Source of the DNA: Acidobacteriota bacterium | GTDB lineage: Bacteria; Acidobacteriota; Terriglobia; Bryobacterales; Bryobacteraceae | Assembly (NCBI GenBank): GCA_016215215.1 | Contig: JACRKW010000088.1 | Span: 1 to 42,152 of the forward strand | Reading direction: 5' to 3' | Length of the DNA stretch: 42,152 nt | Shown here: positions 19,618 to 40,981 of the stretch, piece by piece | Position numbering within the stretch: the first letter of the stretch is position 1 | Layout: each line of letters opens with the position of its first letter | The notes under the pieces: generated by a model | Told to the model about the DNA's origin: nothing | The model's database searches: none | What the model saw: the letters and a program-made list of their open reading frames with translations, nothing else | Program-made: the position numbers and the translations under genes

Positions 19618-20205
19618 GTGAGAATGCCGCTGGCGCCCTGCGCTCTCTTCATCCTGAATATCCTGCCGGCGACGTCCCAAACTCCACAACAGAACGCCGC
19701 CGCCCGCCAGGCCGCGTCGGTTGCCCGCCAGTTGCGTTCAGTCCAGCGCCAGATGGCCCGGCCCCTATCCGTACCCCTCGAAACCTCACATCCTGTCGCC
19801 GATTGCTCTCCTCTCAACCCTGCTGGACTCGACTCCAGCCTCCGTAAGTCCGCCGTCGAGAACGGCCTCACCCCGGATCTGCTCCGTGCCGTCATCCAGC
19901 GTGAATCCGCCTTCGACCCCTGCGCCGTCAGCCGCTCCGGCGCCCTCGGACTCATGCAGTTGATGCCCGGTACTGCCTTCGACCTAGGCGTGGAAGACCC
20001 CTTCAACCCCGAGCAGAACATCGCCGCCGGTAGCCGCTTTCTCCGCCTCCTGCTCGACCGCTTCGGCGGCGACCTGCCCCTCGCCCTCGGAGCCTACAAC
20101 GCCGGGCCGGCGCGTGTTGCCGCCGCCGGCGGCATCCCGCCCATCCGCGAAACCCGCGATTACGTCGACGGCATCATGCGCCGCCTCAACCCGCCCTCAC
20201 ATTGA
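19618..20205 (+). CDS. Lytic transglycosylase (SLT domain) family protein
   Basis: Predicted exported murein lyase that cuts the MurNAc-GlcNAc bond in peptidoglycan. The 195-residue product has an N-terminal hydrophobic segment, a basic/Gln-rich linker, and a C-terminal SLT domain. In that domain AVIQRESAFDPCAVSRSGA holds the catalytic Glu, GLMQLMPGTA is the second motif, and ALGAYNAGPARV is the third. The start may be GTG 19618 or ATG 19624; no good ribosome binding site decides. It is divergent from the minus-strand TonB receptor, with about 108 bp between. Confidence 0.85.
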   Translation: MRMPLAPCALFILNILPATSQTPQQNAAARQAASVARQLRSVQRQMARPLSVPLETSHPVADCSPLNPAGLDSSLRKSAVENGLTPDLLRAVIQRESAFDPCAVSRSGALGLMQLMPGTAFDLGVEDPFNPEQNIAAGSRFLRLLLDRFGGDLPLALGAYNAGPARVAAAGGIPPIRETRDYVDGIMRRLNPPSH

Positions 20206-20397
20206 CCTGAGTCGCCCGTCTCGCTCTGACGCTCCGGATTCTCCCACCCGCCCGTGCGCAACCTGAGTTTCTCCTTAACTAAGGTGATCGCCGTATTCCT
20301 ACTCTATTACTTTTCTTCGCCTAATCCTGACTCGGGAAACCTGTTCCCAGACATCGGTATCTCTACCTACTAGGTTGATTCCTGAAAGGCGGCCCCC

Positions 20398-21117
20398 ATG
20401 GCTAGCAGACAAGCGCTCTTCCTGGCGGCGTACTTGACTTGCACCTGCGGACTCTTTCACCTGAAGTCCGAGGATCGCAAGAAAGACGCCGTCTCCCGCC
20501 CCGACGATGTGCAACGAGACTTCTTCCAGTCCATCAATGCGCGCATCCCGCGGGCTCCTGTCCGGGAACTTGAGTTTTGGGCCATCCCAGACGCGGCTCT
20601 CGTCGTCTTCGCTTTGCGCCGATCTAAGTGCGCCGCGAAGGTCGGAGGTGAATTCCGCGACTACGTCAAGACCCGTCTGGAGACCACCAAGTACCTGCGC
20701 TTTTCCTTCTCGGCGGCCCGAAAAGTCGCCGAGAACCGCATACTGGGCCTGCTAGCCATCTCCAACGTAACCGAGCGCCGGATCGGACTCATGCAGCCCT
20801 TCTTCTCCCCCTCCGCCGCGAGAACCGAAATCGGCGCCACCGGCGTTCTTGAGGTCACCAACCTGCTTCCTCAGATCGAGCTGACTCATGGATTCCGAAC
20901 CGGCAGCTTGACCGAGCGAATTCTTCGGGCGCTGATGGTATTGCATGAACAGGGTCACTTGAATCACGCAATCCCTGTCGACGACGGGTGCCTCCCTCAG
21001 TCCATGCACAATACACGCGACATCGCCGAGGCCTGCTTCGAGGAAATCGTCGAGCCCCTCTCCGAACACCTGCTGACCGCGTTCAGCACCTCCGGTTGCG
21101 TCGGCGGCAGGCGTTAG
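20398..21117 (+). CDS. Hypothetical protein with N-terminal hydrophobic segment and HExxH motif
   Basis: Not recognised as a named family. The 239-residue product has a hydrophobic N-terminus (about 5-20, with CTCGL) that could be a signal peptide. A mixed region follows, then VLHEQGHLNH with HEQGH at 183-187, which fits the zinc-metallopeptidase HExxH pattern. Downstream come SMHNTRDIAEACFEEI (202-217), with glutamates that might be a third ligand. The chance occurrence of HExxH cannot be excluded, but its place inside an amphipathic helix (ILRALMVLHEQGHL) supports it. The stop is 9 bp from the end of the convergent winged-helix gene. Codon use is less C-biased than in its neighbours. Activity as a protease is inference. 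Confidence 0.6.
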   Translation: MASRQALFLAAYLTCTCGLFHLKSEDRKKDAVSRPDDVQRDFFQSINARIPRAPVRELEFWAIPDAALVVFALRRSKCAAKVGGEFRDYVKTRLETTKYLRFSFSAARKVAENRILGLLAISNVTERRIGLMQPFFSPSAARTEIGATGVLEVTNLLPQIELTHGFRTGSLTERILRALMVLHEQGHLNHAIPVDDGCLPQSMHNTRDIAEACFEEIVEPLSEHLLTAFSTSGCVGGRR

Positions 21118-21126
21118 CGGTCGCCG

Positions 21127-22275
21127 TCAACGCGCTGCCGCGGCCTGCCTGTCGCCTGCGGCGGGTCCTGGCCACACGGCGATCACTTCGACGTTGGTCA
21201 CCAGTTCTCTCGTCCTGCGGGCTGGCAGGGTCACCCTGAACAACGCTTGAAACTTGTCGGGAAGCTCGCCCGTGCCTGCAAGCCGCTCCACTAGGTCCAC
21301 CAAGTCGCGGCCCGTCGTCAGGTACTCGGCTACCCCTTCCGCCGCTCGACCGTGATTGGCAGCAATCAGCGTCACCGCGATCCCGTCGTGATAGCTCGGC
21401 CGTCGCGTGAGGACCGCGTGCTTGATCAACCGCCCGTGCACATCAGAACCGTCCGAATACGTGATCGTTGAGCCTTCCACTTCGACGTGTGTCTGATTCA
21501 CGATGAAGTGCAGTCCCGCTTGTTGATCGTCCAGGTACCAGTTCGTTCGCCCGGAGCCTATCGCAATCAGGTGGTTGTCGTGGCGTTCCGGCAGTTGGTC
21601 TTCAGAGTCAATCGCCCGGCAACGTACGTGCGCACCCTCCTCGTGCAGGCAGCTCAGGATCTTCAGAACCGACTCCACTTCTCCCGCCGAATAGTAATGC
21701 CGCGAAGGAGCCCACTCGGCTATGTTATCGGCGCCAAGCACCGCCCCAAGCTTATCTTTCTGCTGCTCGTTGTTCACGTGGATGTCGCGCACATACCGGT
21801 ACTGTGCGTCCCGGAAAAACAGCGGCGATGTGAAAACAATCGTAGTTTCAGCGCCATTCTGCAGGTAAGGCGACCAGAACTTCTGGAACGCCTCTCTTCC
21901 CTCAGCGCTCTCTGCCTCCTGCCGCCTTCCCGTCACTTCCAGACGGTACGGCGACTTGGACACCGATACGTGTATTCCGGAGTCGTTCGCGGCCGACTCG
22001 GAAAACTCGCGCAGGGTCCGGTTCACCTTGTGCCGCAGCGGGTAGATGTTCGTCGCATCGCGCCTCTGCTTCGCCCCTCCATCTCCGTAAATGGCCTCCA
22101 CCAGTTCCTGCGGTTGGCACTCAGCCTTGCCTTTGAGATAACGCTCGCTCAACTGTTGGATCAGCTTGAGCTCCGCATCCCTCCGCATGCTCCGCAGTTC
22201 CTCCTCCAAACCGCACATGAACACGCGCAATTCCCGGCTGAACGGTGCAGCCTTTTCACCATGCTCCATTTCCAC
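21127..22275 (-). CDS. Winged-helix-like protein with C-terminal domain of unknown function
   Basis: 382 residues with no signal peptide. The front half (about 30-115) has AELKLIQQLSERYLKGK, then YPLRHKVNRTLREFSES and HVSVSKSPYRLEV. This resembles the winged-helix modules at the front of many acidobacterial regulators. The back half begins FWSPYLQNGAETTIVFTSPL and contains LIAIGSGRTNWYLDD (236-250) and VTLIAANHGRAAEGVAEYLT (311-330). That looks like an alpha/beta fold with a ligand pocket, but I cannot name the family. The start is GTG 22275; ATG 22269 is an alternative two codons later. It converges on the HExxH gene. A DNA-binding sensor is the most natural reading, held as inference. Confidence 0.65.
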   Translation of the reverse strand: MEMEHGEKAAPFSRELRVFMCGLEEELRSMRRDAELKLIQQLSERYLKGKAECQPQELVEAIYGDGGAKQRRDATNIYPLRHKVNRTLREFSESAANDSGIHVSVSKSPYRLEVTGRRQEAESAEGREAFQKFWSPYLQNGAETTIVFTSPLFFRDAQYRYVRDIHVNNEQQKDKLGAVLGADNIAEWAPSRHYYSAGEVESVLKILSCLHEEGAHVRCRAIDSEDQLPERHDNHLIAIGSGRTNWYLDDQQAGLHFIVNQTHVEVEGSTITYSDGSDVHGRLIKHAVLTRRPSYHDGIAVTLIAANHGRAAEGVAEYLTTGRDLVDLVERLAGTGELPDKFQALFRVTLPARRTRELVTNVEVIAVWPGPAAGDRQAAAAR

Positions 22276-22392
22276 TGGTCTTCTCGTCCTTCAGTGATTG
22301 CCCCATCCATGTGTGCCGAACCTGCAATCCTATATTCACAAGACGTGGCGTGTCCACTCTTCCCGCACGGCGTTGCGCTAAACTCCCCCTGA

Positions 22393-23091
22393 ATGCTCCC
22401 CCTCCTGCTCGCCTTCCAACTCGCGCCCGCTGCCTCCCCCATGGTCGAAAACACCCGCGCCCACCTTCGCATCGAGCGCAAGTCCATCCCCGGCGATCGC
22501 ATCCCCACTCCTTACGGCGAAATCCTCCTGCCGCCTCGCGCCCGCCCCAACCGCCCCCTCCCCCTCGTCATCCACTTCCACGGCGCCCCCTGGCTGGCCG
22601 AGCAGTCCATCCGGCATGCCATGCCTCATGCCGCCGCCCTCGCCGTCCAACTCGGCGCCGGTTCGCGCGTCTACGCGCAACCCTTCCTTGAGCCGTCGGC
22701 TTTCCAGTCCATCCTCAACGCCCTCAACCGCCCCCGCGGCCCGATCTACCTCTCCGGGTTCAGCGCCGGATATGGCGCCATTCGCGAGATCCTCCGCCAG
22801 CCCGAGAACTCGCCGCTCATCACCGGCGTGCTTCTGCTCGATGGCATCCACGCCGGCTACGAACAACCCGAGGAGCAACGCCATCCCCTGCCCGCCGACA
22901 TCGAACCCTACCTCGAATACGCCCGCAAAGCCGCCTCCCGTCAAACCCGCTTCTCCATCCTCCACTCCGAGATCTTCCCCGGCTCATATGCGTCCACCAC
23001 CGAAACCACGGACTGGCTGCTCTCCCAACTCGGACTCCGCCGCAAACCGGTCCTCCGTTGGGGCCCCCTGGGCATGCAGATCCTGCCCTGA
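22393..23091 (+). CDS. Alpha/beta-hydrolase-fold protein, possibly C-terminally truncated
   Basis: Predicted exported esterase-like protein of 232 residues. The N-terminus is hydrophobic (MLPLLLAFQLAPAASP). VIHFHGAPWL looks like an oxyanion-hole strand, and YLSGFSAGYGAI holds the nucleophile elbow GxSxG with Ser124. LLLDGIHAGY offers a candidate acid, Asp150. A catalytic His near the C-terminus, expected after the last strand, is not visible: no His follows LHSEIFPG, and the protein stops at GMQILP. The stop is 19 bp from the end of the convergent DinB gene. Either the His is supplied elsewhere or the gene has lost its tail. There is no Shine-Dalgarno; TAAACT lies 8 bases before the ATG. Confidence 0.65.
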   Translation: MLPLLLAFQLAPAASPMVENTRAHLRIERKSIPGDRIPTPYGEILLPPRARPNRPLPLVIHFHGAPWLAEQSIRHAMPHAAALAVQLGAGSRVYAQPFLEPSAFQSILNALNRPRGPIYLSGFSAGYGAIREILRQPENSPLITGVLLLDGIHAGYEQPEEQRHPLPADIEPYLEYARKAASRQTRFSILHSEIFPGSYASTTETTDWLLSQLGLRRKPVLRWGPLGMQILP

Positions 23092-23110
23092 AAACGCTCC
23101 GGTAGCCGCC

Positions 23111-23710
23111 CTACTTCTTCGGGAAGCCCGCCTCTGCCATCACTTCCTTGATCTGGTTCACGTGCCGTTCCGTGTGCCCGCCGATCAGCACATACCACTG
23201 CAGCCCGTCCAGATCCCCAAACACCGGATGCGGCGCAAAGTGCACTCGCAAGTCGTCGCCCGTCTCCCTCACATAAGCGATGTTTTTGTCCCGCGCCGAC
23301 TTGAAGGCCTCCGCTAACTCTTTGATGTTCTTGTACTTGCCCACGGGACGGATGCTCTCCGGAGCCTGGAACTTCTGCTCCCGAACCGGCAGCATCTTCA
23401 CCAGCATCATGTCCGTCTCGCGAGGGTTCGCCTTCTTCTTCTCCGGCGTCGCCGGAGCCTGCATCGCCTTCTGCACCAGTTGAGGAATCATCAACTCGGT
23501 CGCGGCAATGTGCTCGGCCACTTCCATCACGGACCAGCCGGTGGCCGGCTTCCACTTCAACTGCGCCTCGCTTAGCCCGGTAACGGTGTCCAGGAACAGT
23601 TTTCTGGTGGCATGCAGTTCGCTCATGCAGTAATCCCTGTCTCCCTGGGAGAGGGTCTGCGCGCTCAGTGCGGCCCCGAGAATCAGATAGCAAATTGCAG
23701 TTCGAGTCAT
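23111..23710 (-). CDS. Exported DinB-like (DinB_2) four-helix protein
   Basis: 199 residues with a short signal peptide (MTRTAICYLILGAALSAQ) and a DinB-like four-helix bundle. The metal triad of the family is visible: His67 in EVAEHIAATE, and His179 and His183 in GGHTERHVNQI. TGWSVMEVAEHI is the typical family phrase. Cytoplasmic relatives include thiol-dependent transferases (the DinB/YfiT group); an exported form suggests a periplasmic metal-dependent role, not defined here. The ATG is at 23710, with no strong ribosome binding site. Confidence 0.8.
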   Translation of the reverse strand: MTRTAICYLILGAALSAQTLSQGDRDYCMSELHATRKLFLDTVTGLSEAQLKWKPATGWSVMEVAEHIAATELMIPQLVQKAMQAPATPEKKKANPRETDMMLVKMLPVREQKFQAPESIRPVGKYKNIKELAEAFKSARDKNIAYVRETGDDLRVHFAPHPVFGDLDGLQWYVLIGGHTERHVNQIKEVMAEAGFPKK

Positions 23711-23808
23711 TGTCTCAAGCTACCATCCCCGCCGCGCCTTCGCACTCACGCCCTCCGGCGAGGGGCTAAAGTCTTCGCCTGACCTCGCCGATAAGACATT
23801 AGGTTCAC

Positions 23809-24990
23809 ATGGAACCCCCTGAGACTATGTCTGCTCGCGAGGAGACGCTGGTAGCTCAACGAGCTCCCAGTCTGAGTGCACCCGCATCTCCGCTGGTCAG
23901 CGAGCCTCTGGGCCGTGCCACCATCCTCCTGGTCGACAGCGTCGAGATCAATCGCCAGCTCCTGAAGGGCATCCTCAAGGCCGGGCCCTTCCGCCTCCTG
24001 GAGGCCCGCCAACCTTCCGACGCCTTCGCCATCCTTGATCGCGAGCCCGTGGACCTGATCATCGCCGACCTGATGCTGCCCGAAGTAGGCGGCTCCATGG
24101 ACGGCGGTCTGGACTTCTGCCGGCGGCTCAAAGCCCATCGCCGCACCAGGTTGATCCCCATCCTGATCCTCACCAGCGTCCAAGGCATCGACAACGAAGT
24201 CGCCGGTCTCGAATCCGGCGCCGATGAATTCCTCATCAAGCCCCTTCAGCCCGCTGTCGTCCGCACCCGCGTCCGCACCATGCTGCGCAACAAGCGCACC
24301 ATCGACTCTCTCGAGGAGGCCGAAACCATCCTGTTCGCCCTCGCCCAGACCGTCGAACAGCGCGACCAGGAGACCGGCAACCACTGCCAGCGCCTCGCCG
24401 CATTGAGCGTCGCCCTCGGCACGGCCCTGGGCCTCCCCGAGGAAGATCTCGTCGCCCTCTACCGCGGCGGCTACCTGCATGACATCGGCAAGATCGCCGT
24501 CCCTGACGCCATCCTCTTCAAACGCGGCGTGCTCAACGAGGAAGAGTGGACCATCATGCGCTCCCACACCTGGAAGGGTGAGGAGATCTGCCACCGCATG
24601 CGTTCGCTCGCGCCCGTCCTGCCCATCATCCGCAACCATCACGAGAAGTGGGACGGCTCCGGCTACCCCGATTCGCTCGCCGGCGAGCAGATCCCCCTCC
24701 TGTCCCGCATCCTTCAACTCGCCGACATCTACGACGCTCTCACCTCGCGCCGCAGCTACAAGTCGGCTTACACCCCCGAGGAGGCCGTGGCGATGATCCA
24801 GCAGGAGGCCGCCATGGGCTGGCGCGACCCTGAACTCGTCTCCGTATTTGTTGAAATGGTTCGCGAACCGAACTTCGTCGCCCGCTCCGCCGCCCTCTTC
24901 GCTCCCAGCACCGGCGACCCTGCCGAGGACGCCGAACTCCAGTCCATGCGCGAATCCCTCGCCCGCATGTCCCGCGAAGTCCTCAAGTAG
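23809..24990 (+). CDS. Response regulator with HD-GYP cyclic-di-GMP phosphodiesterase domain
   Basis: 393-residue signalling protein. The receiver domain (about 36-150) has the phosphoacceptor Asp87 in IIADLMLPE and Lys134 in FLIKP. The first acidic pocket reads LLVDSVEINR, with one Asp and a Ser in place of the usual second acid. The HD-GYP domain (about 165-350) shows GGYLHDIGKIAVPD with H214 and D215, NHHEKWDGSGYP, and SLAGEQIPLLSRILQLADIYDA, so the catalytic metal site and GYP motif are complete. It should hydrolyse cyclic-di-GMP when its receiver is activated. No histidine kinase is adjacent. The start is ATG 23809, or ATG 23827 six codons later. The stop abuts the feoB stop with no base between. 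Confidence 0.93.
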   Translation: MEPPETMSAREETLVAQRAPSLSAPASPLVSEPLGRATILLVDSVEINRQLLKGILKAGPFRLLEARQPSDAFAILDREPVDLIIADLMLPEVGGSMDGGLDFCRRLKAHRRTRLIPILILTSVQGIDNEVAGLESGADEFLIKPLQPAVVRTRVRTMLRNKRTIDSLEEAETILFALAQTVEQRDQETGNHCQRLAALSVALGTALGLPEEDLVALYRGGYLHDIGKIAVPDAILFKRGVLNEEEWTIMRSHTWKGEEICHRMRSLAPVLPIIRNHHEKWDGSGYPDSLAGEQIPLLSRILQLADIYDALTSRRSYKSAYTPEEAVAMIQQEAAMGWRDPELVSVFVEMVREPNFVARSAALFAPSTGDPAEDAELQSMRESLARMSREVLK

Positions 24991-26871
24991 CTAGCTGAAC
25001 ACCCTGTACGCCGCCAGCGCGCACAGCCACGCCAGCGCCCCCATATACGCAAACTGCACCGCCGGCCACTTCCATCCACCCGTCTCCCGCCGCACCACCG
25101 CCAGCGTCGACATGCACTGCATCGCAAATGCGAAGAACACCAGCAGCGCTACCGCGCCCGCAAATGTCAGGTCCTTCTGCAACGCTGCCTGCAACCCTGC
25201 CGAGTCTTTATCCGGCTCCATTCCGTAAATCGTCCCTAGCGTCCCCACGATTACTTCCCGCGCCGCCAGCGACGTCACCAGCCCGATGCCGATCTTCCAG
25301 TTGAATCCCAAGGGTGCAATCAGCGGCTCGATCGCCCGCCCCAGCGTCCCCGCCAGGCTCTGCTCGATCGGCGGAGCCTTCCCGTCCACCAGCGGAATGC
25401 TCGCCAGCGCCCACAACACCACCGACACCCCAAGGATCACCGTTCCCGCCCGCTTCAGAAAGGCTAGCGCCCGGTCGTACAACCGCAAGCCCACCGTCCG
25501 CCACGACGGCACCCGGTAGGGCGGCATCTCCAGTACGAACGGCGTCCGCTCGCTCTTCAATATCGACGATTTCAAAACCTTCGCCGTCAGCACCGCCGCC
25601 GCGAATCCCAGCACGTACAACCCCATCAGCGCCGCCGCCCGCGTATGCACGAACGGCCCGATGAACTGCCGGTCCGGAATGAACGCCGCGATAATCAACG
25701 TGTACACCGGCAGCCGCGCCGAGCACGTCATGAACGGCGCGATCAGGATCGTCGCAATCCGGTCCCGCTTGTTTTCGATCGTGCGCGTCGCCATGATCGC
25801 CGGCACCGCGCACGCGTAGGCCGATAGCAGCGGAATGAAGCTCTTGCCCTGCAGTCCCACCCGCGCCATGGTACGGTCTGCGATCAGCGCCGCCCGCGCC
25901 AGGTAGCCCGAATCCTCCAGCACCGTGATGAACAGGAACAGCAGCAGGATCTGCGGCATGAACACCAGCACGGCGCCCACGCCGCTCCACACGCCGTCCA
26001 CAAGCAGGGAGCGCAGTACGCCCTCCGGCAGTACCGCCCGCATCAAACCACCGGCCGCCGCCACCGCCCACTCCACGCCGTCCATCAGCGGGCGCGCCCC
26101 TGTGAAGATCGTCTGAAACACCGCCCCCACCACCAGCACGAAGCTCAGCGGCCCCCACACCGCGTGCAGGAACACGGCGTCCAGCCGCCGCGTCCACACC
26201 GGAGGCGCCGGATGTGTGTAGCCCGCCTCCCGGCTCACCTCGCGCGCCCACTGCCTGCACGCCGGGACGTCCTGCAACACCGGCAGTTCCACCGGCTTGG
26301 GCACGCCGATGCCCCCGGTGAGGAACCGCGCCACTTCCTCCACACCCTCGCCGGTTGACGCGCTCGCCAGCACCACCGGCGCTCCCAACTCGTCCGCCAA
26401 TGCCCCCGTGTCCACCGCGCCGCCCCGCTGCCTCATGTCGTCCGCCATGTTCAGCACAACCAGCGTCGGGATCCGCAGGCTCAGCACCGATGCCGCAAGC
26501 GGCAGGTGCCGGCTGAGGTTGGTGGCGTCCAGGATCAGGATCACGCCGTCGGGCCGCTTCAACCCAGGCATCTTCCCATGCAGCACGTCGTGCGATACGC
26601 GCTCGTCCTCGGAACGCGCGTGCAGGCTGTAGACGCCCGGCAGGTCCACCAGTTCCACATCGTGGCCCCCCGGGAGATCCGCCTTCCCCGTGTGGTGCTC
26701 CACCGTCACGCCGGGGAAATTCGCCACCTTCTGCCGCAGGCCCGTCAGCCTGTTGAACAGCGTGGACTTGCCCGCGTTCGGCGGGCCGATGATCGCCACC
26801 AGTTTGTGCGTTGCCGCTGTGCCCGCACTGGCGGGCGCGCACGAACCGGCGCACTCGTGGCAGTCGCCCAT
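24991..26871 (-). CDS. feoB: Ferrous iron transport protein B
   Basis: Inner-membrane Fe2+ transporter with a GTPase head. The 626-residue protein is at the short end of the family. It begins with a Cys/His motif (MGDCHECAGSC). The GTPase domain follows with G1 GPPNAGKST, G3 DLPGVY and G4 NMAD, then membrane helices with the gate segments (LLSAYACAVPAIMATRTI and FMTCSARLPVYTLI). MQCMSTLAVVRRETGGWKW marks the last part. feoA lies 3 bp upstream on the same strand. Its last codon abuts the convergent HD-GYP gene. No feoC is seen. Confidence 0.96.
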   Translation of the reverse strand: MGDCHECAGSCAPASAGTAATHKLVAIIGPPNAGKSTLFNRLTGLRQKVANFPGVTVEHHTGKADLPGGHDVELVDLPGVYSLHARSEDERVSHDVLHGKMPGLKRPDGVILILDATNLSRHLPLAASVLSLRIPTLVVLNMADDMRQRGGAVDTGALADELGAPVVLASASTGEGVEEVARFLTGGIGVPKPVELPVLQDVPACRQWAREVSREAGYTHPAPPVWTRRLDAVFLHAVWGPLSFVLVVGAVFQTIFTGARPLMDGVEWAVAAAGGLMRAVLPEGVLRSLLVDGVWSGVGAVLVFMPQILLLFLFITVLEDSGYLARAALIADRTMARVGLQGKSFIPLLSAYACAVPAIMATRTIENKRDRIATILIAPFMTCSARLPVYTLIIAAFIPDRQFIGPFVHTRAAALMGLYVLGFAAAVLTAKVLKSSILKSERTPFVLEMPPYRVPSWRTVGLRLYDRALAFLKRAGTVILGVSVVLWALASIPLVDGKAPPIEQSLAGTLGRAIEPLIAPLGFNWKIGIGLVTSLAAREVIVGTLGTIYGMEPDKDSAGLQAALQKDLTFAGAVALLVFFAFAMQCMSTLAVVRRETGGWKWPAVQFAYMGALAWLCALAAYRVFS

Positions 26872-26874
26872 CGC

Positions 26875-27141
26875 CTATTGCTTTCTGAGTAGAATGTGCC
26901 GCGCCGTCTCGCGCCGCAGCGCGATCTCCGAGCCATCCACCCGGAACACCCGCGGGTCGCCTCCCGGTGCGCTGTGCGCCACCGTGATCGCGTGCCCCGG
27001 CACGAATCCAAGCTCCATCAGGCGGTGCGCAAAGTCCGCCGGCAGGTCGATCCGCTCCAGCGTCCCTTCTTCGTTCTCGCCCAGATCCGCCAGGCTCGCC
27101 GGTCCGTTTGCCCGCGCTCCGTTCTTGAAACTCAGTTGCAT
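26875..27141 (-). CDS. feoA: Ferrous iron transport protein A (FeoA, SH3-like)
   Basis: Small cytoplasmic partner of FeoB, 88 residues. It has the FeoA pattern SLADLGENEEGTLERIDL, then HRLMELGFVPGHAITVAH and GSEIALRRETARHILL. The frame is open much further upstream, but homology begins only near MQLSFKNG, so ATG 27141 is chosen. The purine-rich GGAG is only one base from that ATG, too close for normal use; a CTG two codons later would have standard spacing, so the true start is uncertain by a few residues. The stop is 3 bp before feoB. Divergent from the MerR-TPR gene, with 73 bp between. Confidence 0.9.
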   Translation of the reverse strand: MQLSFKNGARANGPASLADLGENEEGTLERIDLPADFAHRLMELGFVPGHAITVAHSAPGGDPRVFRVDGSEIALRRETARHILLRKQ

Positions 27142-27210
27142 TCTCCTTTTTCTATCGTCCTCCTCGCCCGCCCCGGAGTCAAGCCCCGCAAGCCCCCTGT
27201 TCGCGGATGC

Positions 27211-27216
27211 TACAAT
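27211..27216 (+). promoter_or_regulatory. -10-like TACAAT at the start of the MerR-TPR gene
   Basis: TACAAT overlaps the first possible ATG (27215) and ends 7 bases before an in-frame GTG (27224). If it is the -10 box, transcription would begin at or next to that GTG and the message would be leaderless. No good -35 box was seen. Confidence 0.3.
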
Positions 27217-28141
27217 GAGCCCCGTGCCCGATCCGGCAACCAAGCGCTCATACTCACGCGACGAAGTTTGCCGCCTCCTCGGCCTCCGCGAAGCTACCAT
27301 CGAGCAGTGGGAGTCCCACGGTTTCGTGCCGCGCGCCGAAACCTACGCCTTCCGCGACCTTGTGGCTCTCAAAGCCTTGCGCGAATTGAAGCACAAGCGC
27401 ATCCCCCCGCAACGCATCTGCCTCATCCTCAAGTCTCTCCGCAACAAGCTCACCCACATCGTCGATCCCCTCAGCGAGTTGAAGATCTTCTCCGACGGCC
27501 GGCGCCTCGCCGTTCAGGTGGATGGCGCGAAGATGGAACCCATCAGCGGCCAGTTGCTGCTGGATTTCGACCGTGAGGAACTGCGCCGCCTCTTGCAATT
27601 CCCTGGCAAGAGAGCCGACGACACCCTGGCCCAGGCCGTCGCATCCCGTCTACTCGAATCCGCCAAGTGGTTCGATCGCGGCGTCGAACTCGAGCAGACC
27701 GGCGCGCCCCCGGACCACATCATCGCCGCTTACCGCAAGGCCCTCGAGCACGACCCCAACTCCGCCGCTCCCCATGTCAACCTCGGCACCGTCTTCTTCC
27801 ACCAGAAGAACTGGCGCGAGGCCGAAGCCCACTACCGCGCCGCCATCCAGATCAACCCCGGCTACGCCCTCGCTCATTTCAACCTCGGCAATCTGCAGGA
27901 CGAGATGAACGACACCGCCGCCGCCCTCGCCTCCTACCTCCGTGCCCTCGAGATTCAGCCCACTTACGCCGACGCTCACTACAATGTCGCCCTCATTTAT
28001 CAGGGCAAGGGCGACACCATGCGCGCCGTCCGCCACTGGCGCTCCTACCTCAAGCTCGACCCCTCCGGCTACTGGGCCTCCATCGCCCGCCGCGAACTCT
28101 CCCGCCTCCGCCAGGAGACCATCGTCGGCGGTGCCCACTAG
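27215..28141 (+). CDS. MerR-type HTH regulator fused to TPR repeats
   Basis: 308 residues from ATG 27215, or three fewer from GTG 27224. The N-terminal MerR-like helix-turn-helix reads YSRDEVCRLLGLREATIEQW and then ALKALRELKHKRIPPQRI. A middle domain without clear family follows. At least three tetratricopeptide repeats come after about residue 150 (AYRKALEHDPNSAAPHVNLG, HYRAAIQINPGYALAHFNLG, YLRALEIQPTYADAHYNVAL). It probably binds DNA and a protein partner. It is divergent from feoA, so regulation of feoAB is possible but unproven. It is the last C-rich gene before the base-composition flip at its 3' end. Confidence 0.85.
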   Translation: MSPVPDPATKRSYSRDEVCRLLGLREATIEQWESHGFVPRAETYAFRDLVALKALRELKHKRIPPQRICLILKSLRNKLTHIVDPLSELKIFSDGRRLAVQVDGAKMEPISGQLLLDFDREELRRLLQFPGKRADDTLAQAVASRLLESAKWFDRGVELEQTGAPPDHIIAAYRKALEHDPNSAAPHVNLGTVFFHQKNWREAEAHYRAAIQINPGYALAHFNLGNLQDEMNDTAAALASYLRALEIQPTYADAHYNVALIYQGKGDTMRAVRHWRSYLKLDPSGYWASIARRELSRLRQETIVGGAH

Positions 28142-28180
28142 ACCCCCGCGCTCTAAAGACGAGCCAGCCGGCGGCGGGCC

Positions 28181-28186
28181 TACAAT
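28181..28186 (+). promoter_or_regulatory. -10-like TACAAT before the adenosyltransferase gene
   Basis: TACAAT lies 8 bases before ATG 28195, placing a start of transcription within about two bases of the start codon. It recurs in the same context as at 27211. No clear -35 was found; GGAAG next to it could act as a weak ribosome binding site in a longer message. Confidence 0.35.
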
Positions 28187-28194
28187 GGAAGCGC

Positions 28195-28815
28195 ATGGCG
28201 GAACGACCATTTGACGAACCGCGTCTGAAGCTGAACCGGATCTACACAAAGACCGGCGATGAGGGAGAGACGCAACTCGCGAGCGGGGAGCGCGTGAGGA
28301 AAGACACGGCACGCCTGGAATGTTACGGGACGGTGGACGAGCTGAACTCACTGGTGGGGCTTGCGGCGGTCTCGGCGGGAGAGAGGCCGGAACTGGCGGA
28401 GCTGGCGGCGATTCTCGAGCGGGTGCAGCACGAACTGTTCAACCTCGGGTCGACTCTGGCCACCTCTCCGGGTAAGGCGCGCGCGCGCCAGGCGCGGATC
28501 ACGGAGGAGGACGTCGCGCAACTGGAAACCGGGATGGACCGGATCACGGCCGCGCTGCCGCCGCTGACCAGCTTTGTGCTGCCGGGCGGGGCGCGGATCA
28601 ACGCCGAGCTGCACGTCTGCCGGACTGTGTGCCGGCGGGCGGAGCGCCGTCTGGTGGCGGCAGCGCGCGAGGAGGAGATGGACGGGGTGAGCCTGCGTTA
28701 CTTGAACCGGCTCAGTGACGCGTTCTTCGTCTGGAGCCGCTGGACGAACCTGCTGCTGGGCGTGGAGGAGCGGCTGTGGTCGCCGAACAAAGCGGCGGGC
28801 GGACGGGAGTCCTGA
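28195..28815 (+). CDS. PduO-type cob(I)alamin adenosyltransferase
   Basis: Transfers the adenosyl group of ATP to cob(I)alamin, making the B12 coenzyme for enzymes such as methylmalonyl-CoA mutase. The 206-residue product shows the N-terminal ATP loop IYTKTGDEGETQL, the helix RLECYGTVDELNSLVG, the phrase SFVLPGGARINAELHVCRT and the conserved VCRRAERRLV, then LSDAFFVWSRW. All main PduO-family motifs are present. It is the first gene right of the base-composition flip and uses mainly G-ending codons, unlike the gene 53 bp upstream on the same strand. No other cobalamin genes are nearby. Confidence 0.93.
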   Translation: MAERPFDEPRLKLNRIYTKTGDEGETQLASGERVRKDTARLECYGTVDELNSLVGLAAVSAGERPELAELAAILERVQHELFNLGSTLATSPGKARARQARITEEDVAQLETGMDRITAALPPLTSFVLPGGARINAELHVCRTVCRRAERRLVAAAREEEMDGVSLRYLNRLSDAFFVWSRWTNLLLGVEERLWSPNKAAGGRES

Positions 28816-29061
28816 GCGGCGCGGCGGCGCATGTGGTCGGCTCCCCGGGTATCGTCCTTGAACAGGCGGTCGAAGACGCCGAAGCTGCGGACGGGTGCGT
28901 AGTTGGTCGCCCCGGCCGAAGTTGGCGGCGCTGGATTCGTCGAAGCGGCGGGTGTGGAGCAGGACCCGCTCGACGCGATGTGCGGCCGCCTGCCGGTGGA
29001 AGCGGGTGAGGCGCTGGAGAGCGAGCTCAGAGCCGGGCAGCTGTATTCTGTCTGCGACTTC

Positions 29062-29083
29062 GCTCTGGCGCTCCCGCCAGGGC
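29062..29083. terminator. GC-rich hairpin between convergent adenosyltransferase and kgd genes
   Basis: GCTCTGGCG (29062-29070) pairs with CGCCAGGGC (29075-29083) across the 4-base loop CTCC, with one G-T wobble. It lies directly after the kgd stop codon on the minus strand. There is no T-tract on either side, so it would be a stem without the classic tail. It could also stabilise 3' ends. The 28816-29061 stretch before it holds no recognisable gene. Confidence 0.4.
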
Positions 29084-29084
29084 G

Positions 29085-32000
29085 TTACTGTTCGATCTGA
29101 GCGGGGCGTTGCTTCTCGACGACGCGGTAGCGGCGGGGGCGCGTGGGGCTGCCGCCGGAGAAGGCGTCATCGATCACAGCAGCCTGTTCCTGAGCGTGGC
29201 GTTTACCTGAGCCGGTGGACGTAGCCGCGGCTTCGGGGCGGCCGGCATAGCGGAGGCTGCGCCGCGTTGCAGCGAGCATGGGTTCCAACTTATCGCGAAC
29301 AAAAAGGAAGGGGCCTTGGTTGCGGGGCTCTTCCTGAACCCAGACGATTTCGGCGGTGGACGGGTATCGCCACAAGGCGTTTTCAATCTCCCCGGCGGGC
29401 CAGGGGTAAAGCTGCTCCAGGCGCACAATGGCGGCGTTGGAGGCTTCGCGTTGCTGGCGGGCGGCCAGCACTTCGTAGTAGATCTTGCCGGAGCAAAAGA
29501 TGACCTTGGACACGCGATCGGTGGCGACGGGGCCGGTATCGCCGATGACGGGTTGGAATCCGCCCTGGGTGAAATCAGAGAGCGGGCTGACAGCCTTGGC
29601 GTGGCGCAGGAGGCTCTTGGGAGTGAAAAGGACCAGAGGCTTGCGGACACCGCGGCGATCGTGACCGCTGTACATCTGCCGGCGGAGGAGGTGGAAGTAC
29701 TGGGCGGGGGTGGTGACGTTGGCCACCTGAATATTCTCCTCGGCGCAGAGCTGGAGGAAACGTTCGATGCGGGCGCTGGAGTGTTCCGGACCCTGGCCCT
29801 CATATCCGTGGGGAAGGAGCAGGACGAGGCCGCTGGGCTGGCCCCACTTGACCTCGCAGGAGGAGATGAACTGGTCGATCATGATCTGGGCGCCGTTGGC
29901 GAAGTCCCCGAACTGCGCCTCCCACAGGGTGAGCGTGAGGGGGTCGCCGAGGGAGTAGCCGAACTCGAAGCCCATGACGGCGTATTCGGAGAGAGAGCTG
30001 TCGACGACTTCGAAACGGGCCTGTTTGGGGTCCAGGTTCATCATGGGGGTGTAGACCTGGCCGGTCGAGTTGTCGAAATACTCGAGGTGGCGCTGGGAGA
30101 AGGTCCCGCGGCCGCTATCCTGGCCGCTGAGGCGGACGGGAGTGCCTTCCAGGGCCAGGGTGCCGAACGCGAGTGCTTCGCCCATGGCCCAGTCGGCGGG
30201 AGCGCCTTTGAGGATGTCCTTGCGCTTATCGATGAAGCTCTTGAGCTTGGGGTGTAGGGTGAAGGTCTCAGGGAAAGTGGTGAGCCCGTCGACGACGCGG
30301 CCGATGAGGGCTTCCTCGACAGCGGTGCGCGGGCAGACCAGAGGCAGCGCGTCGTCTTCGTAGGAGGTCACCTCCTGGAGCTCCCATTTTTCGCCCTTGG
30401 CCTGGGCCTCCTCGTGGGCGGCGTTGAGGGCGTCCTGAATCTGACGGCGGATGCGCTCCACGGCTTCCTTGTCCACCGCGCCCTCGGCCAGAAGACGGGC
30501 CGAGTACTGCGAGCCGACGGTCTTCTGCGACTTGATGACGCGGTACATCAAGGGCTGGGTGTAGCTGGGGTCGTCGCCCTCGTTGTGGCCGTAGCGCCGG
30601 TAGCAGATCATGTCGATCACGACATCCTTCTTGAACCGCTGGCGGTAGTCGATGGCAATCTGGGTGGCGCGGGCGCAGGCCTCGGGGTCGTCGCCGTTGA
30701 CGTGCAGGATGGGGGCTTGGACGGTGCGGGCGACGTCGGTGCAGTAGGTGGAGGAGCGGCGTTCGTCAGGGGTGGACGTGAATCCGATCTGGTTGTTGAT
30801 GACCAGGTGGAGCGTGCCGCCGGTGGCGTAGCCGCGCAGCAGGGAGAGGTTGAGGGTCTCGGTGACGACGCCCTGCCCGGCGAAGGCGGCGTCGCCGTGG
30901 ACCAGCACGGGCATGACTCTTTCGCGTCGCGCGTCGCCCATCCACGTCTGCTTGGCGCGGACGATGCCTTCGACGACGGGGTCGGCCGCCTCGAGGTGGC
31001 TGGGGTTTGGCGACAGCGAAACTTTGATCTCGCGGCCGTTGGCGGTGCGCTGGATGCCGGAGGCCCCAAGGTGGTACTTGACGTCGCCGGACCCCTGGGT
31101 GGCCTCGGGGTCGACGTTGCCCTCGAACTCGCCGAAGACCTGCGACATGGACTTGCCGATCAGGTTGGCCAGAACCGTGAGGCGGCCGCGATGGGCCATG
31201 CCGACCACCACTTCCTGGACGCCCGAGTCGGCGGAGCGGTTCAGGCACTCGTCGAGGATCACCATGGCGCTCTCGCCGCCTTCGAGCGAAAAGCGCTTCT
31301 GGCCGACGAAGCGTGTATGGAGGAAATTCTCGAAGCTCTCGGCCTGGAGGAGGCGGAGGAGGATGCGGCGGCGGGCGGTCTCCTCGAGGGGCCAGTTGTT
31401 GGCCTGGGGCTCCATGCGCTCCTGAAGCCAGCGTTTCTCCTCGGGGTGCTGGATGTGCATGTACTCGCAGCCAATCCGGCCGCAGTAGGTCTGGCGGAGG
31501 GTCTCCAGGATCTGGCGCAGTGTGGCGACCGTCGCCGGACCGGAGGTGGCCAGGTTTCCGATGATGAACTCGCGATCGAAGTCCCAGATCGTGAGGCCGT
31601 AGGAGGCGGGATCGAGCTCGGGGTGGTAGCCCGGCTGCACGCCCAGGGGGTTGAGGTCGGCAATGAGATGGCCGCGGACGCGGTAGGCGTTGATGAGCTG
31701 GAGAACGGCGGCCTGCTTGGCGATCTCGTCCATGCGCTTCTCATCGCTCGAGCGGGGGCTTGCTCCGGAGCGGGAGCCCGCGCCGCGGCGGTCTACCTCC
31801 CAGCGGAAGGGCTGGTAGGGCATGCCGGTCTGCTCGAAGATCTCGTCGTAGAAGCCTTCGCCGCCTTCGAGCAGGGATTGGAGCTTGCCGAGGAAGGCGC
31901 CGGACTCGGCGCCCTGGATGATGCGATGGTCGTATGTACACGACATGGTCATCACCTTGCAGATGCCGAGCTGGGCGCGGAGGTCTTCACTGACGCCCTG

Positions 32001-32795
32001 GAATTCGGCGGGGAAGTCGATGGAGCCGGTGGCGATGATGGCGCCCTGACCGGGCATGAGGCGCGGGACGCTGGCGAGCGTACCCACGGTGCCGGGGTTG
32101 GTGAGGGAGACGCTGGTGAGCTGGAAGTCAGCCGGGGTGAGCTTGGCTGTGCGGGAGCGGGCGACAATGTCGTCGAAGGCGGTGAGGAACTCGTAGAAAC
32201 CCATCGCGCCGGCGTTCTTGATGCTGGGGACGAGCAGGGATCGGTGCCCGTCCTTGCCGGCGACGTCGACTGCGATACCAATGTTGATTTCGGGGCGAAC
32301 GAGGCGATGGGGTTGGCCGTCAACTTCGGCATAGGCGTGGTTGATGCCGGGAACGTGCTTGATGGCCTTGACCACGGCCCAGGCGATGAGGTGTGTGTAG
32401 CTGATCTTGCTCTTGCCGTGGAGATCGCGCCAGTGGTTGAGCAGGCGGCGGTTCTCGTCGATGACTTTGACCGGAATTGTACGTTGGGAAGTGGCCGTGG
32501 GGACCGCCAGAGAGGCGGTCATGTTGTCGGCGATGCGGGCCGGGGCGCCCTTGAGCGGCACAAGCTGCTCGGCTGGACTCAGGGTGAGGGCCGGAGTCAA
32601 CGCGGGAGCAGCGGCGGGCTGCACAGCGACGGCTGCCGAAACGGGAGGAGGCGTGACCTCTTCGACGGGGGCCTCGCTCTCAAAGACCTCCTTCCAGCTT
32701 TCGTCCACACTGCGGCGGTTGTTGACGAACTCCTGATAGAGCTCTTCCTCGAGCCAGGAATTGACGGTAACGCGGGGTCGGGAATCGGTTGACAT
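29085..32795 (-). CDS. kgd: Kgd-type multifunctional 2-oxoglutarate dehydrogenase E1/decarboxylase with fused E2 domain
   Basis: TCA-cycle enzyme acting on 2-oxoglutarate with thiamine diphosphate. The 1236-residue length and layout match the mycobacterial Kgd protein. A short N-terminal segment (VNSWLEEELYQEFVNN) and a Pro/Ala linker precede an E2-type acyltransferase domain (about 80-320). There TYDHRIIQGAESGAFL supplies the catalytic His290 motif. The E1 part has GMAHRGRLTVLANLIGKSM, DVKYHLGASGIQR, GHNEGDDPSYTQPLMYR and a C-terminal transketolase-like domain. No lipoyl domain is present, so separate E2/E3 partners would be needed for dehydrogenase activity. The start is ATG 32795 without a Shine-Dalgarno. 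It is G-rich on the + strand, so its own codons end mostly in C. Confidence 0.93.
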   Translation of the reverse strand: MSTDSRPRVTVNSWLEEELYQEFVNNRRSVDESWKEVFESEAPVEEVTPPPVSAAVAVQPAAAPALTPALTLSPAEQLVPLKGAPARIADNMTASLAVPTATSQRTIPVKVIDENRRLLNHWRDLHGKSKISYTHLIAWAVVKAIKHVPGINHAYAEVDGQPHRLVRPEINIGIAVDVAGKDGHRSLLVPSIKNAGAMGFYEFLTAFDDIVARSRTAKLTPADFQLTSVSLTNPGTVGTLASVPRLMPGQGAIIATGSIDFPAEFQGVSEDLRAQLGICKVMTMSCTYDHRIIQGAESGAFLGKLQSLLEGGEGFYDEIFEQTGMPYQPFRWEVDRRGAGSRSGASPRSSDEKRMDEIAKQAAVLQLINAYRVRGHLIADLNPLGVQPGYHPELDPASYGLTIWDFDREFIIGNLATSGPATVATLRQILETLRQTYCGRIGCEYMHIQHPEEKRWLQERMEPQANNWPLEETARRRILLRLLQAESFENFLHTRFVGQKRFSLEGGESAMVILDECLNRSADSGVQEVVVGMAHRGRLTVLANLIGKSMSQVFGEFEGNVDPEATQGSGDVKYHLGASGIQRTANGREIKVSLSPNPSHLEAADPVVEGIVRAKQTWMGDARRERVMPVLVHGDAAFAGQGVVTETLNLSLLRGYATGGTLHLVINNQIGFTSTPDERRSSTYCTDVARTVQAPILHVNGDDPEACARATQIAIDYRQRFKKDVVIDMICYRRYGHNEGDDPSYTQPLMYRVIKSQKTVGSQYSARLLAEGAVDKEAVERIRRQIQDALNAAHEEAQAKGEKWELQEVTSYEDDALPLVCPRTAVEEALIGRVVDGLTTFPETFTLHPKLKSFIDKRKDILKGAPADWAMGEALAFGTLALEGTPVRLSGQDSGRGTFSQRHLEYFDNSTGQVYTPMMNLDPKQARFEVVDSSLSEYAVMGFEFGYSLGDPLTLTLWEAQFGDFANGAQIMIDQFISSCEVKWGQPSGLVLLLPHGYEGQGPEHSSARIERFLQLCAEENIQVANVTTPAQYFHLLRRQMYSGHDRRGVRKPLVLFTPKSLLRHAKAVSPLSDFTQGGFQPVIGDTGPVATDRVSKVIFCSGKIYYEVLAARQQREASNAAIVRLEQLYPWPAGEIENALWRYPSTAEIVWVQEEPRNQGPFLFVRDKLEPMLAATRRSLRYAGRPEAAATSTGSGKRHAQEQAAVIDDAFSGGSPTRPRRYRVVEKQRPAQIEQ

Positions 32796-32888
32796 GGTAA
32801 TGCGGACGGCGGGGTGGCTTCGGGCTGCGCCCTGTCTAGTCTTTAGTTTATCTCCGTTTGTTGGATGCGCCGGGGGGACTGAGGGAGG

Positions 32889-32912
32889 CAGGAGACAGTA
32901 GTCAGGAGTCAG
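32889..32912. repeat. Short direct repeat CAGGAG(A/T)CAG
   Basis: CAGGAGACAG (32889-32898) and CAGGAGTCAG (32903-32912) are near-identical decamers four bases apart, just upstream of the phosphoesterase ATG at 32922. They could be a small dispersed repeat family or a binding site. Only this copy was noticed. Confidence 0.4.
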
Positions 32913-32921
32913 AATAGGAAC

Positions 32922-33518
32922 ATGCGACTGCTGGTGTTTTCAGACATCCATGGCGACCTGCGGGCGCTGCAGCGGCTGATGGAGATGGAAGCCGACGCCT
33001 ATGTCGCTGCGGGGGACATGGTGACGTGGTCGCGGGGACTGGACGCGGTGGGTCCGCTACTGGCTCAGCGCGCGGCTCAGATGTGGGTGCTGCCGGGCAA
33101 CCATGAGCACGCCAGCCAATCGGCGCGGTTCTGCGAGCGATACGGTCTCCACGACCTGCACGGCAAGTGGTTTGATTTCAACGGCTGGCGGGTGGCCGGG
33201 TTGGGACATTCGAATCCCACGCCGTTCAACACGCCAGGCGAATACAGTGAGGAAGAGATGGCGGAGCGGCTGGCGCCGTTCGCCGGGTTGGAGACGCTGG
33301 TGCTGATCTGCCATTGCCCCCCGTGGGGGACGGCGCTGGACGAGGCGGCCCCGGGGCGGCACTTCGGCAGCAGGGCCGTGCTGGAGTTCATCGAGAAGAA
33401 CCAACCGCAGTGGTTCCTGTGCGGGCACATTCACGAGGCGGCCGGACGGGAGGCGCTGATCGGAGCGACGCGGGCGGTGAACGTGGGGAAAGAGGGCTAT
33501 CTGCTGGAGGTGGGGTAG
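32922..33518 (+). CDS. Calcineurin-like metallophosphoesterase
   Basis: 198-residue cytoplasmic protein with the metallophosphoesterase motifs in order: FSDIHGDLRAL, AAGDMVTWS, VLPGNHEHAS, LICHCPPWGT and CGHIHEAAGR. These are the metal ligands of a dinuclear centre, so it should hydrolyse a phosphomonoester or diester; the substrate is not told by sequence. It is short and lacks extra domains. AGGA lies close to ATG 32922. The next gene starts 39 bp later, on the same strand. Confidence 0.9.
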   Translation: MRLLVFSDIHGDLRALQRLMEMEADAYVAAGDMVTWSRGLDAVGPLLAQRAAQMWVLPGNHEHASQSARFCERYGLHDLHGKWFDFNGWRVAGLGHSNPTPFNTPGEYSEEEMAERLAPFAGLETLVLICHCPPWGTALDEAAPGRHFGSRAVLEFIEKNQPQWFLCGHIHEAAGREALIGATRAVNVGKEGYLLEVG

Positions 33519-33557
33519 AAATACATCGACGGTAACTCGACTTGGACGTATACTGTC

Positions 33558-34751
33558 ATGGAACTGGACAAGACTATGAAGATTCACCACCACCATCATG
33601 GGTCGCGGCTGACGCGGCGAGGGCTGTTTGCGTCGGTGATTCCGGGGGCGCTGCTGGCGCCGGGGGCGTTTCCGCAGGGCGTGGAGGAGACGGCGGCACG
33701 ATTCCGGCAGAGGTCGGCTGAGTTCGAGGCCAAGGGCCTGGCCGATCCATTCAAGGGGATCACGGCGGACGGGAATGTGGAGACGGGGTTGTACGGGATT
33801 CACTCGACGGGTGTCTCCACCGAGCCCGTGCGAGTTGCGGTGGAGCGATTCCTGGAGAGCTTGAGCGTGGAGCAGCGGGGACGAACGATGTTCGGGGTGG
33901 AGAGCCTGGCGGAGATGACGGATGCGCAGCGGCGGGCTGCGTTCGGGGTGCTGGGAGCGGCGCTGAGCGCGAAGGGGTTGAAGCTGACCCGGGACATCAT
34001 GCGGCTGAACGAAACGCTTGCGGAATTGACCGGCGATCACGATTTTCTGGGCGAGTGGTTGTACCACTTTACGGTGATGGGGAAGCCGTCGGCGAGGGAG
34101 CCGTGGGGGTTCCAGTTGGACGGGCATCACGTGATCATCAACTACTTCGTGTTGGGGGACCAGGTGGTGATGACGCCGTTTTTCGCCGGGTCGGAGCCGG
34201 TGACGGCGCCTTCGGGCAAGTACAAGGGGGTTTCGATTCTGCAGGAAGAGCAGGAGCGGGGCTTTCAGATGTTGCAGGGGCTGAACCGGGGCCAGCGGGT
34301 GAAAGCGATACTGAATCCGGAGAAGACAAAGAACTACAACTTGACCGAGGCGTTCAAGGACAACGTAGTGTTGGACTACGCCGGAGTGCGGGGCGCCGAG
34401 CTGGCGGAGCGGGAGAAAAAGCAGCTGCTGGACTTGGTGGCGTTGTACGTGGGCAACATGGACGAAGGACATGCCCGGGTGAAGATGGACGAGGTGAAGA
34501 GGCACATCGGCCGGACGTGCTTTGCGTGGGTGGGCGGCGAAGAGGCAGGCGGGACTTTCTACTACCGCATTCACAGCCCGGTGATCCTGATCGAGTTCGA
34601 CCACCAGTCGCCGGCGAACCTGGGACGGTTTGCGAAGGATCCCAAGGCCCCGACGAGACAGCACATTCACACAGTGGTACGGACTCCGAACGGAAACGAC
34701 TACGGAAAGGATCTGCTCCGGCAGCACTACCTGGCGCACGCCCACGCGTAA
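33558..34751 (+). CDS. DUF3500 family protein with Tat-like signal and native pentahistidine
   Basis: 397 residues from ATG 33558. Family features of DUF3500 are visible: EPWGFQLDGHHVIINYFVLG, VMTPFFAGSEPV, IHSPVILIEFDHQSPAN and HIHTVVRTPNGNDYG near the C-terminus. The N-terminus has LTRRGLFASVIPGALLAPGA, a twin-arginine-like signal, so export in folded form is possible. Five His residues (10-14) sit just before it. The second ATG at 33576 would begin MKIHHHHHG and would make a more normal signal length; TATACT ends 3 bases before the first ATG, which favours the second. The function of the family is unknown; the many conserved His and Asp hint at metal binding. Confidence 0.85.
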   Translation: MELDKTMKIHHHHHGSRLTRRGLFASVIPGALLAPGAFPQGVEETAARFRQRSAEFEAKGLADPFKGITADGNVETGLYGIHSTGVSTEPVRVAVERFLESLSVEQRGRTMFGVESLAEMTDAQRRAAFGVLGAALSAKGLKLTRDIMRLNETLAELTGDHDFLGEWLYHFTVMGKPSAREPWGFQLDGHHVIINYFVLGDQVVMTPFFAGSEPVTAPSGKYKGVSILQEEQERGFQMLQGLNRGQRVKAILNPEKTKNYNLTEAFKDNVVLDYAGVRGAELAEREKKQLLDLVALYVGNMDEGHARVKMDEVKRHIGRTCFAWVGGEEAGGTFYYRIHSPVILIEFDHQSPANLGRFAKDPKAPTRQHIHTVVRTPNGNDYGKDLLRQHYLAHAHA

Positions 34752-34801
34752 CGGGGGGGTGATGCCCGGTTGCTGGCGTGCGGGAAAGTCGGGCGGGCGG
34801 G

Positions 34802-35485
34802 TTAGTTGTTGGAGGTAGCGTCGACGGTGACGGTGGACGTATCGCTCACGGCTGGTTCAGTGAGAAGGATGCGGCGGGCGCCGACATAGTTGGCGCGCCA
34901 GTAGGGGTCGGTGAAGAGCGGGCTGATGGAGACCGGGCGGCGGCGGTTGGGAGCGTGGAGGAAGGACCCGTCGCCCACGTAGAGGCCGACGTGCCAGCCG
35001 CGCCGCCTGTTATTGAAGAAGACGAGGTCGCCGGGTTGGAGTTCGTCGCGTTCCACTTTGAGGCCCAGGTTGAACTGGGCGGGGGCGGAGGTGGGCAGGG
35101 AAACGGGGAATGAGGACTGGAAGACGTAGCGGGTGAGGCCGCTGCAGTCGAAACCGACCTGGGGGTTGGAGCCGCCGCGCACGTAGCGTTTGCCGAGCTG
35201 CTCGTAGGCCACCGAAAGGAGGGTTTCGGCGCAAGGAGCACACTGGGAGGCGGCGCGGGGCGGGGGCTGAGTGGGCGGAAACGGCGGCAGTAGGTAGGAA
35301 GGTAGAGATGGAACGGCGGCCAGGAGGGGGTTGACTGCGGGCGGCTTCGCGGGCGGGCGGCGTACGGCGGCGCGCCGCACGGGCGCCTTCTTCAAGGCCG
35401 GACGCGCTGCAGGCCTGACGGGCGCGATGGCGCAGAGCGATGGCGCGGCCAGGAGCGCAAGAGCACAGATTGATGCGACCTTCAC
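34802..35485 (-). CDS. NlpC/P60 family cell-wall endopeptidase
   Basis: Predicted exported peptidase cutting peptidoglycan stem peptides. The 227-residue product has a signal peptide (MKVASICALALLAAPSLCA), a basic Pro/Ala/Arg-rich linker (20-80), then the NlpC/P60 domain. The catalytic Cys114 is in GFDCSGLTRYVF, His165 in GWHVGLYVGDG and His177 in SFLHAPN, a complete Cys-His-His set. The frame stays open far upstream into prfB antisense, but the signal peptide fixes the start at GTG 35485. It is divergent from prfB, with 69 bp between. Confidence 0.9.
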   Translation of the reverse strand: MKVASICALALLAAPSLCAIAPVRPAARPALKKAPVRRAAVRRPPAKPPAVNPLLAAVPSLPSYLLPPFPPTQPPPRAASQCAPCAETLLSVAYEQLGKRYVRGGSNPQVGFDCSGLTRYVFQSSFPVSLPTSAPAQFNLGLKVERDELQPGDLVFFNNRRRGWHVGLYVGDGSFLHAPNRRRPVSISPLFTDPYWRANYVGARRILLTEPAVSDTSTVTVDATSNN

Positions 35486-35554
35486 CAAACTTCCATAGTC
35501 TATACAAACTTGGCCCGCTCGTGGGAAGCGGGGTCGGGTTGGTAGGATAGAGAT

Positions 35555-37594: not shown

Positions 37595-37657
37595 GGGGAC
37601 AATTCTCCCTGACCTGACCCTCGTGAGCTCTACCAGGAATAATTGAGAAGCTCCGGA

Positions 37658-40972: not shown

Positions 40973-40981
40973 CGATACTTC

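Follow-up and report, generated by a model that had tools for sequence, protein, structure and literature searches.

Why does the plus strand of this DNA turn from C-rich to G-rich within the 53-bp gap between two neighboring genes that are both encoded on it? The window, by which we mean the whole of contig C79 (JACRKW010000088.1, 42,152 bases) of the draft genome G000 (4.71 Mb, 392 contigs, completeness 84.9%), has a GC skew of -0.196 across 8700-28141 and of +0.185 across 28195-37594. The cumulative skew reaches its minimum at 28169, at the gap. A maximum-likelihood change-point fitted on 20001-37000 falls at the same base, with a 95% support interval of 28145-28258, and the log-likelihood ratio over the whole window is 310, whereas 1000 shuffles of 300-bp blocks give at most 60. 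Near 37.4 kb the plus strand ceases to be G-rich, and the skew is about 0 over 37595-42152.

A sequence-only reading of this DNA had placed an abrupt flip in the gap between the MerR-TPR gene and the adenosyltransferase gene and had held that gene direction could not explain it. Both statements hold, and the hand counts behind them are exact (35 C and 12 G at 19381-19440; 31 G and 17 C at 29101-29160); the description of the plus strand as G-rich to the right of the gap is correct up to about 37.4 kb and fails beyond. The statement on gene direction is borne out by the fourfold-degenerate sites of 23 hand-chosen genes, doubtful ORFs being excluded. At these sites the plus strand is C-rich in all 14 left genes (11 on the plus and 3 on the minus strand; skew -0.38 to -0.79) and G-rich in all six genes from pduO to sua5 (five on plus, one on minus; +0.36 to +0.64), and the three genes tested beyond sua5 are mixed (-0.20, +0.12, and +0.41). 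A gene-strand or codon-usage cause of the flip is ruled out by this agreement between genes of both strands.

The left block (1-28136; skew -0.19), defined from Pfam domains and DNA alignment with contig C37 of the sister genome G001, carries an outer-membrane protein gene, ATP synthase genes, VWA and OMP genes, an HD response regulator, feoB-feoA, and, as its last gene, MerR-TPR (27215-28141, plus strand; MerR_1 and TPR domains). It is followed by a junction of 43 bp (28137-28179) that is unaligned to G001 on either side and holds the change-point, and then by the pduO leader (28180-28194, plus strand), at the first base of which the G001 alignment resumes. The leader contains a TACAAT box, which precedes pduO in seven of the eight genus sequences compared (G000 and six of seven relatives), G003 having only ACAAT. 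The first gene of the right block encodes a pduO-type cob(I)alamin adenosyltransferase (28195-28815, plus strand; Cob_adeno_trans, 1.4e-61). It is whole, as is MerR-TPR, and the cut falls between genes. The right block (28180-37594; skew +0.185), recognized from Pfam domains and a gene order shared with genus relatives, continues with a fused 2-oxoacid acyltransferase/2-oxoglutarate dehydrogenase E1 gene (kgd), a phosphoesterase, DUF3500, NlpC/P60, prfA, and sua5. Beyond it lie a weak-skew stretch (37595-40252) with FGE-sulfatase-like, DUF2846-like, and RCC1-like ORFs, none of which was found in the sua5-ntt interval of G003 and G004, and a nucleotidyltransferase gene with a neighboring ORF (40253-42001, minus strand), collinear with the same two genomes.

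The fused protein encoded at 29085-32795 is 1236 aa long and carries its 2-oxoacid acyltransferase domain ahead of the 2-oxoglutarate dehydrogenase E1; relatives of similar length occur in Gemmatimonadetes and other records, and an acyltransferase-2-oxoglutarate dehydrogenase E1 fusion is known from actinobacterial Kgd.

Comparison with relatives shows that gene order breaks where the skew flips. The left block matches G001:C37 in one order at 87-90% DNA identity (8763-20196 and 22362-28136), the alignment stops at 28136, and it restarts at 28180 on another G001 contig (C57). A join of two species is unlikely, because both sides match this same sister genome at about 85-90% DNA identity. Neither continuation in G001 contains a flip: past MerR-TPR the skew is still -0.37 and -0.29 in two 1-kb windows and then nears zero, and before pduO it remains positive. 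In all eight genus relatives (G001-G008) the next gene after MerR-TPR encodes an MFS sugar porter (in G003 with about 3 kb between), and in none of them is it pduO, which follows MerR-TPR in G000 alone. Synteny with the genus relatives is thus lost between 28136 and 28180, at the very place of the flip, and the relatives do not keep one order across 28.1-28.2 kb with the same skew.

On the other side, pduO adjoins kgd in the genus relatives too (again with about 3 kb between in G003). To the left of pduO, G002, G003, G005, and G006 carry an ABC-F gene and two methylmalonyl-CoA mutase genes, names that we read off the sequences. These neighbors are missing beside pduO in both G000 and G001, where mcmA1 lies on C247 and C54, respectively, and neither genome yielded a close ABC-F relative. 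Since pduO is without its mutase neighbors in both, the left edge of the right block probably broke before these two genomes split, and the break between MerR-TPR and MFS is probably special to G000.

The flip is real, and it is where two blocks of opposite polarity meet, not an origin. A switch from C-rich to G-rich is of the origin type, and in G002 and G006 the distance between kgd and dnaA is 41-42 kb, both of which would suit bidirectional replication starting at 28.17 kb, from an origin or otherwise; we nevertheless give this explanation almost no credence. The window contains no DnaA box (TTWTNCACA; none in 42,152 bases, 0.47 expected), as the sequence-only reading had noted in arguing against an origin; stretches around dnaA contain six (L100), three (L107), and one each (L101, L053, and L092). 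The dnaA gene of G000 is on contig C98, with positive skew throughout across it, and in G005 and G016 the two genes, kgd and dnaA, are as much as 0.92 Mb and 0.53 Mb apart, respectively. The missing boxes, the location of dnaA, and the relatives, where the two halves adjoin in none of eight and no such flip is seen, together rule out an origin at the gap.

The rule that a C-to-G change marks an origin-type switch, which had also been invoked, does not carry over to this genus. Chromosome-wide skew was sampled in one relative, G006, as forty-one 20-kb stretches of its 9.5-Mb contig C1, unevenly spaced and denser near 6 Mb (L048-L067, L152, L153, L161, and L313-L330). An absolute skew of at least 0.05 was found in 27 of the 41 samples, 13 positive and 14 negative, arranged in 16 runs; the best two-arc split fits 18 of these 27, with a mean of 19.0 for shuffled signs. 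G006 is therefore a mosaic of skew blocks with no two-arm pattern, so that the origin rule cannot be applied here and an interpolated cumulative skew minimum and maximum are not meaningful.

We consider it reasonably probable that the seam arose when the chromosome was recently rearranged, an inversion within one arm being the simplest case. The coincidence of the change-point at 28169 with the synteny break at 28136/28180 supports such an event. The two blocks would have gained opposite strand composition before being brought together, the base cause of the skew being assumed to be asymmetric replication. Third codon positions in the genus carry a strong strand bias that goes with the stretch of DNA rather than with gene direction; if a stretch is turned round its skew turns too, leaving an edge that stays sharp until mutation erases it, as shown by one inversion in G006 described below. 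Comparison with the relatives shows that the left block of G000 (ATP synthase to MerR-TPR) has lost its MFS neighbor and the right block (pduO, kgd, prfA, and sua5) its methylmalonyl-CoA mutase neighbors, and in this assembly the gap is where the two are joined. The simplest event joining blocks of opposite polarity would be a recent inversion of one of them inside a chromosome arm. One point counted against this account is that G000 shares the upstream break at pduO with G001, which lacks the mutase neighbors there as well. The earlier preference for an inversion or translocation breakpoint is accordingly upheld in part: it is the best supported explanation, on the strength of the gene-order break at the flip, and its caution about an assembly join stands, the MFS gene that normally follows MerR-TPR being at the very end of another contig.

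An assembly misjoin is possible and in our judgment rather unlikely, yet it is the rival to take seriously: in the cell MerR-TPR would still be followed by MFS, and C79 would wrongly link two pieces from one species that are each assembled correctly but lie far apart. It is favored by the 392 contigs and 84.9% completeness of the draft and by the adjacency broken in C79 being kept in eight of eight relatives. The end of contig C161 (C161:26671) truncates the MFS gene at codon 204, and the part that remains is oriented as though it carried on from MerR-TPR across a gap of some 0.8 kb. Skew disruption of this kind is what SkewIT uses to flag misassembly, according to passages of its paper (PMC7717575). 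Against a misjoin, its usual cause is missing: the window is free of Ns, and the matches listed for 28100-28225 in the G000 draft include no exact repeat above 16 bp. The best match of this interval in the draft, besides itself, is 31 bp at 87%; no seam repeat was found in 20 other G000 stretches, and the matches within the window, 13-17 bp long, do not rise above chance level. A repeat common to both true loci at the seam was not found in the draft, from which a copy may be absent. Both seam genes are intact with the cut between them, and C161 ends inside the MFS gene, not at a shared repeat, in the stretches examined. No inverted repeats or mobile element, which are common at inversion breakpoints and not required for inversion, were found at the seam.

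Behind its MFS gene, C161 carries genes collinear with G003, and mcmA1 of G000 lies 150 bp from the end of C247 (C247:150). The predicted partners of a reciprocal junction are thus both at contig ends (C161:26671 and C247:150); the reciprocal junction itself was not found in the G000 draft, which was counted against the rearrangement. The cut MFS gene at the C161 end fits both a real event whose other end is unassembled and a misjoin. Separately, C161 of G000 (L176/L177; 20128-20326 and 25900-26671) contains a second, partial MFS 3' end, separated from the main copy by about 5.6 kb, which suggests a local duplication or insertion.

A third route, the insertion or translocation of one block beside the other, for example through several successive events in place of a simple two-break inversion, seems improbable to us. 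It would accommodate the absence of ABC-F and mutase neighbors beside pduO in both G000 and G001, the left side having broken before the event confined to G000, and also the fact that the G000 MFS gene keeps its downstream genes as in G003. However, it takes more steps than one inversion, and one block must still be turned round.

Inversion, the explanation that we prefer, has a counterpart elsewhere in the genus. The main contig of G006 (9.48 Mb) shows two flips within 120 kb around kgd, with change-points at 17496 (17405-17667) and 43860 (43795-44294), given as offsets from 5950001. A 265-bp inverted repeat, 90.6% identical, has copies at 17376-17640 and 44058-44301 (L048 17376-17640 and L050 4058-4301), and both change-point support intervals overlap these copies; the repeat resembles a small HicAB-type gene pair. 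The 26-kb segment between the flips is inverted relative to G002, and G002 and G005 agree with each other and have no flip, which makes this an inversion of G006 only. A young inversion does, then, produce such a skew picture in this genus, as shown for this one case with flips at both ends.

Synteny was followed for four of the 12 flips called outside the window, two in G006 and two in G005. One of the G005 flips, L078:4205, sits where collinearity with G002 and G006 ends, and the fourth flip followed, L154, is repeat-rich and weak. At the very sharp flip in L078, repeats around CTGGGCATCGCCCAG occupy 3950-4800, parts of which match many places in G002 and G006. Between MerR-TPR and MFS in G001 (L148, 17295-17450) there are three tandem 42-bp units with a GGGACACACTTCAGTGTGTCCC palindrome. 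Dispersed palindromic repeats were rejected as a cause of the flip, since the GGGACACACTTCAGTGTGTCCC-type pattern is absent from the window and from 38 G006, 20 G005, and 19 G000 stretches (one of them, L183, being all N).

The skew of each block also has a history. In the frame of the window, the right block has a skew of +0.26 in G001, +0.19 in G000, +0.07 in G003, and 0.00 in G004, and of -0.09 to -0.14 in G002, G005, G006, and G007; the ATP-synthase part ranges from -0.19 (G001) to +0.19 (G007). Skew travels with the sequence and reverses over time, and orthologous blocks are opposite in different species. Substitutions polarized with unanimous outgroups show that in G001 the bias still strengthens the existing skew of each block (right block, C>G 35 versus G>C 7; two left parts, G>C 33 versus C>G 5; p 3e-10). 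The corresponding counts in G000 are C>G 9 versus G>C 7 and G>C 6 versus C>G 4, and Fisher p values for G001 versus G000 are 0.043 and 0.075 on these small counts. A third left part of G000 shows loss of C, with G>C 14 versus C>G 29, and the OMP part, with only two outgroups, gives a Fisher p of 0.004 for G001 versus G000. A variant with one or two distant outgroups was not relied on because the outgroups' own composition biases the result. On the G-rich strand, the skew of G001 has been raised mainly by C-to-G transversions (35 versus 7) and not by C-to-T changes, an excess that would be unusual if it holds on such small numbers and parsimony polarization.

The polarized substitutions give no sign that either G000 block is being rewritten in reverse, which was counted against an inversion. 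Because the push in G000 is weak on both sides, the polarity test does not show long reverse replication and fits a junction that is either very young or false. With such small counts, substitution polarity is not decisive between a real and a false join. In the comparison of G002 with G006, the inverted segment likewise carries no reversed bias, the skew of G006 being stronger in the inverted and the neighboring collinear parts alike; either the replication model is incomplete, or the G006 inversion happened too recently to put it to the test.

More broadly, we put forward, as a doubtful proposition, that strand composition in this genus is strong and local, without a single origin and a single terminus to organize it. 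The chromosome might be covered by blocks of opposite skew, each tens to a few hundred kb long, the sign of an orthologous block differing by species. Within-arm inversions may be tolerated faster than skew erodes, or fork directions may be locally fixed and globally irregular through several or shifting start sites. If so, the seam would be just one of many block boundaries, and a recently formed one. In the open-licence literature, no description of a skew mosaic like this was found for the group; passages of the Solibacter genome paper mention cumulative skew only with regard to GC content and treat rearrangements by mobile elements in general (PMC3174227), and the word Acidobacteria is absent from passages of an inversion-landscape paper (PMC5850607). 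A genus with strong skew, and with no two-arm pattern in the relative sampled, is one in which rearrangements can be dated by skew decay, and in which relaxed selection against within-arm inversions can be tested against replication that is not single-origin.

The window offers a well-resolved skew jump at a gene-order break, of a kind that in drafts can be an assembly error. Its skew is about 0.19; the SkewDB abstract puts a typical skew at 2.5%. It has in common with a chromosome replication origin the switch from C-rich to G-rich, but here there are no DnaA boxes and no dnaA, and the switch is not conserved in relatives. Wrong inversions or translocations in assemblies, as described in parts of the SkewIT paper, look the same, and the seam here is known from the assembly alone; in that paper, read coverage decided the case of E. 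coli O121 (PMC7717575). Merrikh and Merrikh (2018; PMC6220195) inferred gene inversions from GC skew, an inference criticized in PMC9098844. Both their approach and ours call inverted DNA by GC skew, whereas here the gene order of relatives is used as well and the unit is a block, not single genes. Compared with the skew jumps at recent bacterial inversions, the G006 example has inverted repeats at both ends. Inversion jumps are usually seen against a clear two-arm background; unlike these, the present one lies, as judged from the sampled relative, in a mosaic, and the predicted partners for the second end of the event in G000 fall at contig ends. What the seam shares with them is a sharp change of sign, independent of gene direction, at a break in gene order.
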